64,000 nt of DNA from Bacteroidota bacterium (GTDB lineage: Bacteria; Bacteroidota; Bacteroidia; Bacteroidales; JACABE01): positions 1 to 64,000 of the forward strand of contig JACABE010000012.1 in the NCBI GenBank assembly GCA_013377005.1. Direction: 5' to 3'. Below, one piece after another: positions 5,153 to 64,000 of this stretch. The notes beneath the pieces were generated by a model. That model saw only the letters and a program-made list of their open reading frames with translations, had not been told where the DNA came from and did not search any database. Each line of letters starts with the position of its first letter. Position 1 is the stretch's first letter. The position numbers and the translations under genes are program-made.

Positions 5153-6106
5153 TTATACAAGCATTATTTCTACTTCTGCTGTATTAACGGTGTCTTTATT
5201 TACAAGTATTAAATATTTTCCCAAATCGGTGGCTGGTATTTCTACTTCGTCGCCGGCAAATAGTTCGATGGGTGCAGTTTTGGGTGCTTCGTCGGGGGTG
5301 TTTGCTCCGTAATAAAAAATAGAAGTATCAGTACTTACATTGCTCAATAAAATAGTATCGGTTACCGAATAAATAAGATTGGGAGTTTTGGTAGTAAGGG
5401 GTGGTATTTCCACCAATAAGGGTTGTTCGCCTTCGTCGTCGGCAGTGTGTTTACGTACTTCTAAGATAGATTCATCAAAAAAGGCAAGCATTTTTTCAGG
5501 AGTTTTGTAGTAATAAGCAGCAATGGTGAGTATGTTTTTGTAGATTTGATCGAAAAATTCAACTTTAGCAGCTTCAAACTCTGGGATGTTGAGTTTTACA
5601 CTTCCGATAAGTCCTTTTTGAGTATTTACAGCATCTTCGTATCCTAATCTGATGGCTTTGAATTTATCGGAATAAGGGGTGCCCAGCGCTGTTTCGTGTG
5701 TAAGACTGAAATTTTCAAAACGAAACATAAGTGTCAGCGCATTGGCTTGTGTCATTTTATGAATTTCACTTGCTCCGTGTGGATAGAATTCTTCGTAAAA
5801 GCCCGATTTTTTCAACTTATATTCAACCAAGGGTTCAATTTCGATAGCTAATGTTTTAAATTCGTCAGCTTTCTGGTTGAGCTGTATGGTGGCCGCCTGA
5901 CGCTGGGCTTCCATTTGGTCTCTGGAAGTAATATTCCCAAACATGATATTGTAGAGAGATTTAATTGCTGCCAGTATAGCAGCAAATTCGGCAATTCCGG
6001 CTTTTTCTAATGCAATAATGTGATATTCGCCGAATTTACGGATTTTTTCTTTTCCTACTAAAATATAGGAAAATGGTTTCTGTGCATAACTTTTAAATTG
6101 TTTCAT
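5153..6106 (-). CDS. Hypothetical protein, helical N-terminal region plus beta-type C-terminal domain (module A protein)
   Basis: 317-aa ORF; helical/amphipathic to ~aa 225, then PPLTTKTPNLIYSVTDTILLSNVS...GDEVEIPATDLGKYLILVNK, beta-rich. Confidence 0.75.
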   Translation of the reverse strand: MKQFKSYAQKPFSYILVGKEKIRKFGEYHIIALEKAGIAEFAAILAAIKSLYNIMFGNITSRDQMEAQRQAATIQLNQKADEFKTLAIEIEPLVEYKLKKSGFYEEFYPHGASEIHKMTQANALTLMFRFENFSLTHETALGTPYSDKFKAIRLGYEDAVNTQKGLIGSVKLNIPEFEAAKVEFFDQIYKNILTIAAYYYKTPEKMLAFFDESILEVRKHTADDEGEQPLLVEIPPLTTKTPNLIYSVTDTILLSNVSTDTSIFYYGANTPDEAPKTAPIELFAGDEVEIPATDLGKYLILVNKDTVNTAEVEIMLV

Positions 6107-6282
6107 AATAATTAAAGGATTTAATTAAACATTTCTTTTTTCACTATAAAAGTAAAAATCATCCATATTATAACTTAATACCTTTTCAAATATTGCAAAA
6201 CTCATCTAAAAATTTAAAAATATTTCAAGATATTATGACATGTAATTTTTTATTAGATATAAATATATTATTGGTAGCCTTA

Positions 6283-6538
6283 CTGAAGTATCTTTTATAT
6301 TACATTCAAAATACATGTACCCATTCTGAAGTTTCATTTAAAGTACATGTAAAATACATATAGCTATTCTGAAGTTTCTTTTATAGTACATGCAGAATAC
6401 TTGTTGTCCTTCTGAAGTTTCATTTATCCTACATGTAAAATACATGTATGCCTTCCGAAGTTTCTTTTATAGTACATGCAAAATACATGTACCTCTCAGA
6501 AAGTATTTTTTATACCACATGCAAAAAATAGGTGGTGC
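6283..6538. repeat. 43-bp direct-repeat array A (about 6 units)
   Basis: CTGAAGTTTC... phase starts at 6283, 6326, 6369, 6412, 6455 (exactly 43 bp apart), then 6497; each unit carries TACATG-type half-sites. Confidence 0.9.
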
Positions 6539-6612
6539 TTTTGAAAAATAAATACGTGGTGAATAAAATAAAGTTCACGGATTAGAGGTCATAAATAATA
6601 TAGCGCTGAATT

Positions 6613-7879: not shown

Positions 7880-8488
7880 ATGAAAAAATTATCAATTTTT
7901 GTATTATTACTAACAACTATTACATGTTTTGCAAGTAAAAACAATATTGCAAAGCCAGAGATTAATCAAACAAATTCAGCAGATGGTTATTATTCGGCAG
8001 GTTACTACGACAAAGAATCAGGCAAAATAGTAATAACACATGAAATAACCAGAGAATTAAGTGATGCATACAACAAATTATCTCAAAGAGAAAATCAAAT
8101 GTCAGCAACATTAAATAGCATTGATATTTTGGATAACAACCCAACCGATTTAAAAAATTTATCATATTATTGTAATTATGGAAATACTTCAGAAGGATCT
8201 TTTAATGTAGCTCTTGAATTATTAAAAATTGAAAGAGATAATAAAATATTTTATATAGTTGATTATAAATCAAATGGTGGAAATTCAGTAACACATACAT
8301 GTACAGGTGTTAAATGCGAATCTTGTCGATTTACACTTGGAACACAAGGTGAAATTAATGGTTGTGAATGTGTAGGTCAAAAAGGACATTGCAATCATAC
8401 AATCTCATCTACTAGCGGCGGCGGCAACAGCATAGATGTTGCTGCATGGGCGGGTGTTTTAGTAGGTATTCTTTCTTGGTTTATATAA
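7880..8488 (+). CDS. Small exported Cys-rich protein with C-terminal hydrophobic segment
   Basis: Signal peptide MKKLSIFVLLLTTITCFA; CTGVKCESC...CECVGQKGHCNH; GGG linker; AAWAGVLVGILSWFI end. Confidence 0.7.
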   Translation: MKKLSIFVLLLTTITCFASKNNIAKPEINQTNSADGYYSAGYYDKESGKIVITHEITRELSDAYNKLSQRENQMSATLNSIDILDNNPTDLKNLSYYCNYGNTSEGSFNVALELLKIERDNKIFYIVDYKSNGGNSVTHTCTGVKCESCRFTLGTQGEINGCECVGQKGHCNHTISSTSGGGNSIDVAAWAGVLVGILSWFI

Positions 8489-8494
8489 TTTTGA

Positions 8495-8531
8495 GTTGTC
8501 TCAAATATCAATTAAAAGTATTTGAGACAAC
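8495..8531 (+). terminator. Hairpin after 7880-8488
   Basis: AGTTGTCTCAAATA...TATTTGAGACAACT inverted repeat. Confidence 0.6.
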
Positions 8532-8606
8532 TTTACTATTTTAATTAGGCTTTACAAATTTATTTTATTATTTTTACGCATTATAAAAATATTAATCATT
8601 ATAATA

Positions 8607-9809
8607 ATGAGAAAAATTTACATTTCAATAATATATATTATTTTTTTACTTTCATCTTGTTCTAAAGCTGAAAATCCTATTATTAGTACAGCTTTTAATA
8701 AAATAAAAAATGCTAATTCCTATAATATCAGAATTATACAGCTTAATAGCTTTACTACAGATACAACAATAACATATGCTTCTCCATTAATAAAATTTAT
8801 TTCTAAAAATGATGTAAATTATGAATTATCTGCATATAAATTTTTATATTTTGAAGAAAGTAAAGATACAGGAAATTGGTTTAATCTAACATTAATGGAT
8901 GGTAATAATTGGTATATTAAAAAGGATGTTTTGAATACATATAATCTGAAGGATGATAATAATTATGCTAATTTTAAAAGTAACTTCTCTGATTATTCGG
9001 TTCTATTTTATCCGAAGGATTATTTTTCGCGAATATTTAATTGGGAATTAAAAAATGAAGAAAAAATAGAAAATGAAAATACATGGCTTTTTGAAAGAAG
9101 TTATAAAGACAAACAAGGTTTTAACGTATTATTAAAAGCAAATATTAGCAAAGTTGATACATTCCTTAGACAGTTTACTATAATTTGCTCTGATTATGAA
9201 AAATTGCATGAACCATTGGAAATTTTTTATAAATTAGATATACTTTCTCACAAATCTTTAGGTACAGATTGTGATTCAATTTTTGATATAAATATTCAAA
9301 AGAATAAATTCAATAAAGAAAACAAAAATATCAGCCCAATTATTTCAGATATTAAATCATCCGATAAAATAATAAAAGATACAGCTGATATTCTTTTAAA
9401 TTCGAATTTGATGAATATGAATGGAGATGTAACAAAATTATCATCTAATAAAGGGAAATGGATTCTTGTTGATTTTTGGTATGTTGGATGTTATCCATGT
9501 TATAAAGCAATGGACTTTTTAAATAAAATGGCTGTAAAATATAAAGATAACGGATTGGTTATTTATGGAATAAACCCTATGGATAATGACAGGAAAGCAT
9601 TAACAAGATTATTTAATGATAAAGGCTTAACCTATCAATATTTAATTGACCCTAAAGGTAATTGTGTAAAAAAAATAGGAATAACAGGGTATCCAACAAT
9701 GTATTTAATTTCACCAGATAATAAAATTGTTTGGCAACATTATGGTTACACTCCCTCTATGGATGCAGAACTTGAAAAAATAATAGAAAATAATATTACA
9801 AGAAAATAA
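8607..9809 (+). CDS. TlpA-like thioredoxin-fold lipoprotein
   Basis: Lipobox-like FLLSSCSK; DFWYVGCYPCYKAMDFLNKM (CxxC); GYPTMYLISPDNKIVWQH. Confidence 0.85.
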   Translation: MRKIYISIIYIIFLLSSCSKAENPIISTAFNKIKNANSYNIRIIQLNSFTTDTTITYASPLIKFISKNDVNYELSAYKFLYFEESKDTGNWFNLTLMDGNNWYIKKDVLNTYNLKDDNNYANFKSNFSDYSVLFYPKDYFSRIFNWELKNEEKIENENTWLFERSYKDKQGFNVLLKANISKVDTFLRQFTIICSDYEKLHEPLEIFYKLDILSHKSLGTDCDSIFDINIQKNKFNKENKNISPIISDIKSSDKIIKDTADILLNSNLMNMNGDVTKLSSNKGKWILVDFWYVGCYPCYKAMDFLNKMAVKYKDNGLVIYGINPMDNDRKALTRLFNDKGLTYQYLIDPKGNCVKKIGITGYPTMYLISPDNKIVWQHYGYTPSMDAELEKIIENNITRK

Positions 9810-30390: not shown

Positions 30391-31359
30391 CTAAGTAATT
30401 TCTAACAATAGTTTTTCTAATTCGAAATTAAATTCCTGATCTTCGTTATCGGAAATAAGTTTGATGTCAGTTTTAATGAGCTCTTTGTAGCCTACAGCTG
30501 TAATTTTGATGCTGTAAGTACCCGGCACAACTTCGTCGATATAAAATTCGCCTTTTTCGTCGGTAATGGCTGATAATGGGGTGGTAAGTATTTCAACAAT
30601 GGCATCTTCAACAGCTTTGTGGGTATCGGCAGCTGTAACCTTGCCTTGCATGAAAGCTGAATTTATTTCCTCGTCGGCAACTTTGAGCGTCTTCTTTTTA
30701 GGTGCATTGTTTAAGATATAATTTCGGTAGTATTCGGGTTGTCCTTCAAAAATTATTTTGCCTGCCTTGGCAACATTGCTGATTAATTTCCATAAATCAT
30801 CGTACGCTTTTACACGCATTCCGGTTGCTATTAAACGGGCTCTTTTGGCTTGTTCTTTAGCAATATTGGCATTTTCCAGCTCAGTGCCTAACTGGCAGGT
30901 TTCATCAATCATTTCCAACGCAAGCCCCTTGAGCATCAAATCATCTTTGTACTTTTCTAAAGTTAGAATAAAGAGTTTTAAAAAGAAAATCAACTTATGC
31001 TGCGAATTAACTACTTTTTTCAGGCTTGGATATCCAAATTCGAGCAAGTGAAAATCGTCGTCGGGGAAAGCTTTTTTTACATAGTATCTGATGCTTCTGA
31101 TATTCGCAATAGCTTTATCGGAGAAATTAATTACATTTTTAGTAGCTTGCATTTGCCTTGCCACCACTGCATAATTGGGCTGGATTTTTTCAATCAACTG
31201 GATTTGTTGACTTATTTTATCGGAATACGCCATGTTTAATTCCGGGTCGAAAGCCTGAAATTTTGAAATGTCGGCTATAAAACTTTGATGGATGTTTTTC
31301 GAAATTTCCCACTGCTTGGCTTGTGGAATTCCTTTTGATACGTGCTGTTTGGGTTTCAT
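30391..31359 (-). CDS. Hypothetical protein, helical N-terminal region plus carboxypeptidase-regulatory-like C-terminal domain (module B protein)
   Basis: 322 aa; C-terminus PLSAITDEKGEFYIDEVVPGTYSIKITAVGYKEL is CarboxypepD_reg-like; N-terminal ~230 aa helical. Confidence 0.8.
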   Translation of the reverse strand: MKPKQHVSKGIPQAKQWEISKNIHQSFIADISKFQAFDPELNMAYSDKISQQIQLIEKIQPNYAVVARQMQATKNVINFSDKAIANIRSIRYYVKKAFPDDDFHLLEFGYPSLKKVVNSQHKLIFFLKLFILTLEKYKDDLMLKGLALEMIDETCQLGTELENANIAKEQAKRARLIATGMRVKAYDDLWKLISNVAKAGKIIFEGQPEYYRNYILNNAPKKKTLKVADEEINSAFMQGKVTAADTHKAVEDAIVEILTTPLSAITDEKGEFYIDEVVPGTYSIKITAVGYKELIKTDIKLISDNEDQEFNFELEKLLLEIT

Positions 31360-31624
31360 ATATAAAAATTTAAAAGCTGTTGAAATTTATAATTAAACCA
31401 AAACCGCTAAGCGGTTATAAATATTTTATTTTTGAATGAATAATTTCCGTTTTGCTTGCTATGCAGTTGACTTTGTTTTCAATGCCTCCTATATTAGTAT
31501 CTCATTTATTGTTTTTACCTATTTTATAACAACAAAATTACAACAAATAATATATTGGTTTCAACATTCTGCAAAATTTTTTATCGGCCTAACTAAATCT
31601 TTGTCACATACCATTCATTTTGTC

Positions 31625-31792
31625 GGTACACCAATATATTCTAGCAGTACACTAATTTATTCAAGCAGTACACCCATATATTCTGTCGGTACACCAATTT
31701 ATTCCAGCGGTACACTAAAATATTCAAGCGGTACACCAATTTATTCAAGCGGTACACCAATTTATTCTGTCGGTACACCAATATATTCTTTT
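31625..31792. repeat. 21-bp direct-repeat array B (8 units, no indels)
   Basis: GGTACACCAATTTATTCAAGC-type units starting at 31625, 31646, 31667, 31688, 31709, 31730, 31751, 31772. Confidence 0.95.
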
Positions 31793-31952
31793 AATAAATT
31801 TAGAATGTTTAAATATATATATCCGTACCGATAGAATATCTTGCGGCATTGCCCGACTTTGTGCTATATAACCAAAAAAGTATGATAGAAATTTAAAATT
31901 GAAAGTATAAATTGTTTAGAAATCCTTACTTCGGAATGAATTATACCTATAA

Positions 31953-63149: not shown

Positions 63150-64000
63150 AACGCCAAGAGAATGCTTTCGATCATCAGTAGAATACATTCCGTCGTCGGT
63201 AGAATGCCTTCCAACATTAGTAGAATATCTTCTGTCATTAGTAGAATACATCAGTCATTAGTAGAATGTCTTCAATCTTTAGTAGAATGCTTTCAGACAT
63301 CGGTAGAATGCCTTCCGACATTAGTAGAATGTCTTCTGACATTAGTAGAATGCTTTCCGACATCGGTAGAATGTCTTCTGACATTAGTAGAATACCTTCC
63401 GTCGTCGGTAGAAAGCCTTCCAACATCAGTAGAATGCCTTCTGATAACAGTAGAATGCTTTCTTTCGTTAGTTGAATACATCAGTCATTAGTAGAATGTC
63501 TTCTGTCATCAGTAGAATGTCTTCTGATATCGGTAGAATGCTTTCTGTCGTTAGTAGAATACATCAGTCATTAGTAGAATGTCTTCAATCGTTAGTAGAA
63601 TGCTTTCAGACATCGGCAGAATGCCTTCCGATATTAGTAGAATGCCTTCAAACATCAGTAGAATGCTATCGTTCTTCAGTAGAATGCCTTCTGAGGTCGT
63701 GCAATTACTTTCTGTCATCATGCAAAAGCTTTCAAATGATTTGCAATAGCTTTCTGTCATCGTACAAATACCTTCCACCATTGTGCAAAAGCTTTCAGTT
63801 ATCGTGCAATACCTTCCGACGTTGTGCAAATACCTTCAGAAGTCATGCAAATGCTTTCTATCGTTATGCAATTGCTTTCGTACAGCATGAAATACTTGCT
63901 GTCATCAGTAGAATGCTTTCGGTATTAACGAGAATACAATAAATCTTTAAGCAAATGTTTTCGTACTATCAGTAATTGCTTTCTGACATCGTGCAAATGC
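63150..64000. repeat. 21-bp direct-repeat array C (about 40 units, truncated by window end)
   Basis: AGTAGAATGCCTTCCGACATT-type 21-bp units with occasional 20-bp units; GTGCAAATGCTTTCTGTCATC subfamily from ~63696. Confidence 0.95.

Follow-up and report, generated by a model that had tools for sequence, protein, structure and literature searches.

Array B, which runs from 31624 to 31791 of the window (by which the whole 64,000-nucleotide stretch analysed is meant), belongs to a class of cassettes in which a gene of an unnamed Bacteroidia protein superfamily is accompanied by a strictly spaced tandem array, and there is hardly any doubt that this class is real. It was computed directly that arrays are paired with the gene family, that the period is fixed, that cores and spacing are preserved over spacers and, in members with a 42-bp period, that dyads are set half a period apart. 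About even weight is given to the reading that array B constitutes the DNA half of a two-part cassette, i.e., a superfamily gene combined with a private phased array of candidate binding sites.

The window has 32% G+C, is part of a 3.69-Mb genome assembly and carries SusC-like and T9SS-type genes together with promoter boxes of the TAnnTTTG type, which suggest a Bacteroidia-type bacterium. The first-pass annotation had reported eight 21-bp repeats with zero indels, each starting (G/A)GTACAC and ending in a variable 3′ portion, and this description held, with coordinates that were off by at most 1. TRF called the array at 31624-31789 (period 21, 7.9 copies, 81% matches, 0% indels), and cutting every 21 bp from 31624 resulted in eight units with the consensus CGGTACACCAATTTATTCAAG, all of which start CRGTACAC and end variably in AG, GT or TT; no strand is assigned to this or the other arrays. 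The GTAC cores lie at 31626, 31647 and so on up to 31773, every step being exactly 21 bp, and with only about 1.9 GTAC per kb across the window, seven consecutive steps of this length are not due to chance. The array score was not reached by any shuffle of the homologs' upstream regions (0/198). An inverted ninth unit, overlooked in the first-pass annotation and likewise without a strand, is located at 31820..31840, where the GTAC at 31825 appears as CCGTACCGATAGAATAT after a step of 52 bp beyond the last core; inverted units are also contained in the sister arrays L060, L061, L062, L064 and L065. The dyad of array B is the 4-bp GTAC palindrome only, the long dyads of the 42-bp members being absent, and the dyad argument is therefore drawn from the relatives of array B, with which it has the gene family and the exact spacing in common. 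A CRISPR reading of array B was considered and rejected, because its units are contiguous, without unique constant-length spacers between identical repeats, in contrast to the true Cas12a-type array that lies beside the L090 cassette and served for comparison.

The association between arrays and genes was assessed on 80 unique proteins, 66 of which had at least 400 bp of 5′ sequence, and an array was counted if it had a period of 20-22, 41-43 or 62-64 bp and lay within 600 bp of the gene. A 5′ array was found for 53 of these 66 homologs, versus 9/406 other ORFs of the own genome (Fisher 5e-48; these matches were mostly arrays without a family gene) and 2/76 3′ flanks (6e-24), figures to be read with the paralogs of one genome not being independent and the array-bearing cassettes occurring in 23 genomes. 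The tie of array B to its adjacent protein, as put forward in the first-pass annotation, was thereby supported as a pairing. Among the 13 misses, the arrays lie farther upstream at L128, L173 and L182, are degenerate at L146, L188, L197, C78 and C14, and are placed 3′ of the gene at L144 and L165, while no array was detectable at L030, L132 and L177. Arrays in the 3′ position were also seen at L220, L222, L223 and L224, and these six cases do not fit a pure promoter operator. The near-complete genome G243 has seven members, three with 5′ arrays and four with 3′ arrays. The distance from the end of the array to the ATG is 0-60 bp in several of the distant members, and there the array may be part of the leader.

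A survey of several hundred kilobases of the own genome, plus parts of relatives, showed that the intergenic tandem arrays of the own genome have periods of mostly 21, 42, 43 or 63 bp and unrelated unit sequences. Several are placed directly 5′ of similar protein genes, namely array B, loci L059, L070 and L090, and array A (6257..6549; period 43, i.e., 2 x 21.5; about 6.8 copies), which marks the second cassette of the window. About 0.36 Mb from G001, G006 and G019, three relatives with no detected family A, was searched without finding any intergenic array of the 21/42 type, only other periods being present. G001 has 51-bp periodic repeats inside open frames (L099:18377-18687 and L103:13391-13843). 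In G003, similar GTAC arrays with similar flanks are found near the ends of four contigs (L062, L063, L064 and L065), which probably represent a repeated locus that broke the assembly.

Protein B, encoded on the minus strand at 30391..31359, has 322 aa, with a helical N-terminal region (about residues 1-225, the secondary structure coming from a low-confidence model) and a C-terminal CarboxypepD_reg-like beta domain (residues 238-314; 30418..30648, minus strand). Protein A (317 aa; 5153..6106, minus strand) belongs to the same superfamily, whose general layout consists of about 220 N-terminal residues that are predicted to be helical, followed by a variable C-terminal domain, this being an unnamed beta domain, CarboxypepD_reg, a longer beta extension, or nothing at all. 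The two families were joined by profile-profile comparison with hhalign at a probability of 97%, and their homology rests on this comparison, in which the A profile excluded B-like rows; an hmmsearch of B with an A profile was not independent because that profile included three B-like rows. For the N-terminal region, Pfam, NCBIfam, PHROGs, PADLOC and PDB gave weak or chance matches only, among them NF052641 “PQLLE family”, far below the cut-off, and, for one member, PADLOC PDC-M54B (E = 0.0012). The helical region matched no known DNA-binding fold, and the cassette proteins matched no toxin, transposase, HUH, Rep or Par family. Single-sequence structure predictions for proteins B and A (pLDDT 39 and 34) were too poor for a fold search. 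The A-type members are patchy in distribution (4-5/58 relatives, 21/388 genomes of the class) and multi-copy, with 5-11 matches in several genomes. When a wider profile was applied to a phylum-wide sample, the additions from outside were weak matches only; plasmids and phages gave no match to the family-A query, nor did viral contigs to queries A2 and A3.

Whether the arrays act as DNA or as a transcript was addressed through their stems, their strands and the signals around them. A dyad can serve as a DNA site or as an RNA hairpin, and in a hairpin G.U is tolerated on the transcribed strand, whereas A.C is not. The stem mismatches of the arrays are even in this respect (G.T 117 vs A.C 125; in a stricter set 84 vs 91, heterogeneity p = 0.10), and the folding energy was better on the sense strand in 29 cases vs 34 on the antisense strand (p = 0.86), the fold z-scores being inflated by repetition and used for this strand comparison only. 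Cores occur in both orientations within one array. Class-wide, Bacteroidetes-type -7 boxes are enriched 22-68 bp before the ATG, and a gene promoter box between array and ATG was found by a strict motif search in 21/47 cassettes vs 2.4% of background windows, whereas boxes before the array were at background level (3/55). In the array B cassette the interval between array and gene holds the motif match TAATTTTG (TAnnTTTG) on the minus strand at 31533..31540, which, at 181 bp before the ATG, is atypically far. A terminator-like element between array and gene was as rare in the sense (2/54) as in the antisense direction (1/54). The even mismatches, the absence of a strand preference, the mixed orientations and the pattern of promoters and terminators favor DNA sites over RNA, and the arrays probably are site arrays that act at the DNA level. 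The small RNA for which the first-pass annotation had suggested a search was accordingly not borne out, there being no strand bias in the stems, no promoter enrichment before the arrays and no match above chance in Rfam, where ToxI reached E = 0.88 only.

The main rival reading follows the model of type III toxin-antitoxin systems: the array would be transcribed, and the protein would have the resulting repeat RNA as its partner. We regard this as unlikely. In ToxIN, CptIN and TenpIN, tandem repeats of 34-36 nt precede an endoribonuclease gene, and the repeats are constant in length, diverge fast and do so together with the protein (PMC5086642). The layout of the cassettes is very similar, with a short-repeat array that mostly precedes a protein gene, a constant repeat length, divergent sequences and co-divergence with the protein; many units can be folded as hairpins, the gene-sense strand folds better in 6/7 B-type arrays, and promoter-like boxes that read from the gene side into the array in 11/54 cases suggest that the arrays may be transcribed. 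Against this, no ToxN-, CptN- or TenpN-type endoribonuclease was matched in Pfam, NCBIfam or PADLOC, and where a single promoter before the array and a Rho-independent terminator after it would be expected, the gene has a promoter box of its own in the interval. The cassettes also differ in lacking an RNA strand bias, in having arrays that are sometimes 3′, in their period of 21/42 rather than 34-36, and in spacers that have diverged while the 42-bp spacing stayed fixed.

A further possibility is that the arrays are mobile or selfish repeats of the MITE or REP kind that were spread by the protein. It draws on the arrays that stand without a family gene, namely array C and those at L073, L082, L091 and L093. 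Array C (63159..64000 of the window, extending to about C4:64040) has 21-bp units of two sub-types and no recognisable adjoining family gene, and the array at L073:2697-3169 is likewise long, with 21-bp units of more than one sub-type, and also lacks a recognisable family gene alongside. The units at L082:17410-17680 are 92% identical to the array of the L148 cassette on another contig, of which this array is possibly a satellite site, and arrays like that of L029 recur on four further contigs of its genome. There is also a precedent in BrickBuilt of Porphyromonas gingivalis, intergenic tandem repeats of 23 nt within a minisatellite-MITE (PMC4596501), which resembles the cassettes in being an intergenic tandem repeat of a Bacteroidota genome. 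BrickBuilt, however, is one sequence family with leader, tail and TIRs and without linked genes, whereas the cassettes have many sequences and one gene family; related copies per array are few, by eye no common leader, tail or terminal inverted repeat is evident, nearly every locus has its own unit sequence, and cross-array blastn found almost no common sequence. In REPtrons a RAYT transposase gene is flanked by its cognate REP palindromes, with related repeats elsewhere in the genome (PMC3733652). The cassette gene is similarly flanked by its own palindromic repeats and has related repeats elsewhere, but the proteins match no HUH/Y1 tyrosine transposase or other transposase family, and the repeats form tandem phased arrays with few dispersed copies. 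The mobile-repeat reading is thus quite improbable.

The geometry of the arrays bears on whether they are under selection. The period was 42 in 36 of the 63 arrays excised, 41 in 10 and 43 in another 10; six had 21 or 63, and one had a weak 32. The period (41/42/43/21) tracks the protein tree, with 15 changes vs 24.2 +/- 1.3 for shuffled labels (0/300), an agreement that is partly expected from common descent. Below about 45% protein identity, clear similarity of the unit sequences is lost, which means that the period outlasts the sequence. At L222 in G243, copies of the 14-bp palindrome GGGACGTACGTCCC follow one another at exactly 42 bp and are 100% identical, with spacers at 49%, and in the sister cassettes of B at L060 and L061 GTAC is 100% conserved every 21 bp exactly, the remainder being 45-47% identical. 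Kept cores at fixed steps over diverged spacers are what selection on core and spacing predicts; simple tandem duplication does not predict this. Of the two explanations offered in the first-pass annotation, selection on spacing with divergent bases was therefore upheld, whereas recent expansion from mixed units cannot account for kept cores amid diverged spacers; its proposal that the cores are phased on the same face of the DNA turned out to be a general property of the class. The best inverted repeat scored 5.97 vs 3.95 in shuffles, and 15 of the 39 two-dyad arrays have their dyads 20.5-21.5 bp apart, which is half the period. Stems vary less (10.8%) than the remainder (15.7%), and compensated stem changes were weakly above shuffles (25 vs 18.2 +/- 3.4). 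Were the arrays neutral minisatellites that travel along with the gene family, joint inheritance would also explain the agreement of period and tree, and indels are indeed present in 23/59 arrays by TRF; that one period is held across unrelated sequences, that cores outlast spacers at exact intervals, that dyads are set at precisely half the period and that stems are less variable makes this reading very improbable. Array B is also spanned by a 132-aa open frame (31436-31834) with GTPIYSS heptads, and that it codes for a small heptad-repeat protein was rejected as having practically no chance of being true, since 20/63 sister arrays have periods of 41 or 43, which are not divisible by 3 and cannot keep a reading frame, and since changes between units hit all codon positions, so that the frame probably just reflects a period that is a multiple of 3.

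For array B as the DNA half of a cassette, the following mechanism may be envisaged. Steps of 21 and 42 bp correspond to two and four helical turns. With a site at each 21-bp step, or with two dyads alternating within each 42-bp unit, all sites would face one side of the helix, and a protein would recognise the cores on double-stranded DNA and assemble cooperatively along the array. The binder would most simply be the neighbouring cassette protein, each paralog having its own site sequence, and binding of the sites by this neighbour is given slightly less than an even chance. The complex would then act locally, in self-regulation, nucleoid anchoring or partition-like clustering. More tentatively, the class may form a multi-copy chromosomal nucleoprotein system in which each helical paralog recognises its own phased-dyad array and in which protein specificity and site co-diversify, resulting in many insulated pairs per genome. 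Iterons, centromere-like parC/parS arrays and phased operator arrays are made of strict helically spaced direct repeats beside the gene for their binder, and mixed orientations are possible in them. The cassettes have in common with the iteron and parS type the integral helical spacing of direct repeats (21/42 bp) and a position beside the gene for a putative binder, but they are without a replication initiator, ParA/B or known DNA-binding domain and consist of many chromosomal paralogs, each with its own sequence. An iteron in the strict sense, the comparison made in the first-pass annotation, was therefore rejected, there being no adjacent Rep or Par protein and no plasmid or phage match to the family-A query.

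The pairing of array and gene family is rated as new because no tested family or system fits, while the mechanism may prove to be a variant of known site arrays. The openly accessible literature on 21/22/42-bp Bacteroidetes arrays, on PQLLE and on type III toxin-antitoxin systems in Bacteroidetes gave no account of the pairing. It links the superfamily to a recognisable DNA element and provides dozens of natural protein-site sequence pairs. Provided that binding within the pairs is specific, they would supply DNA-protein specificities that are insulated from one another and allow the diversification of recognition within a family to be tested; with RNA as the partner, they would constitute a protein-RNA repeat system of a new kind. 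In both cases, current annotation would show only a hypothetical protein and an intergenic repeat.

One cassette of the own genome directly adjoins a CRISPR locus. At L090:3345-8300 (own genome C12:283345-288300) there is a Cas12a-like gene with a CRISPR array of AATTTCTACTATTGTAGAT-type repeats, partly masked with N, and the family cassette follows with its array at 8310-8560 and its gene at 8760-9725.
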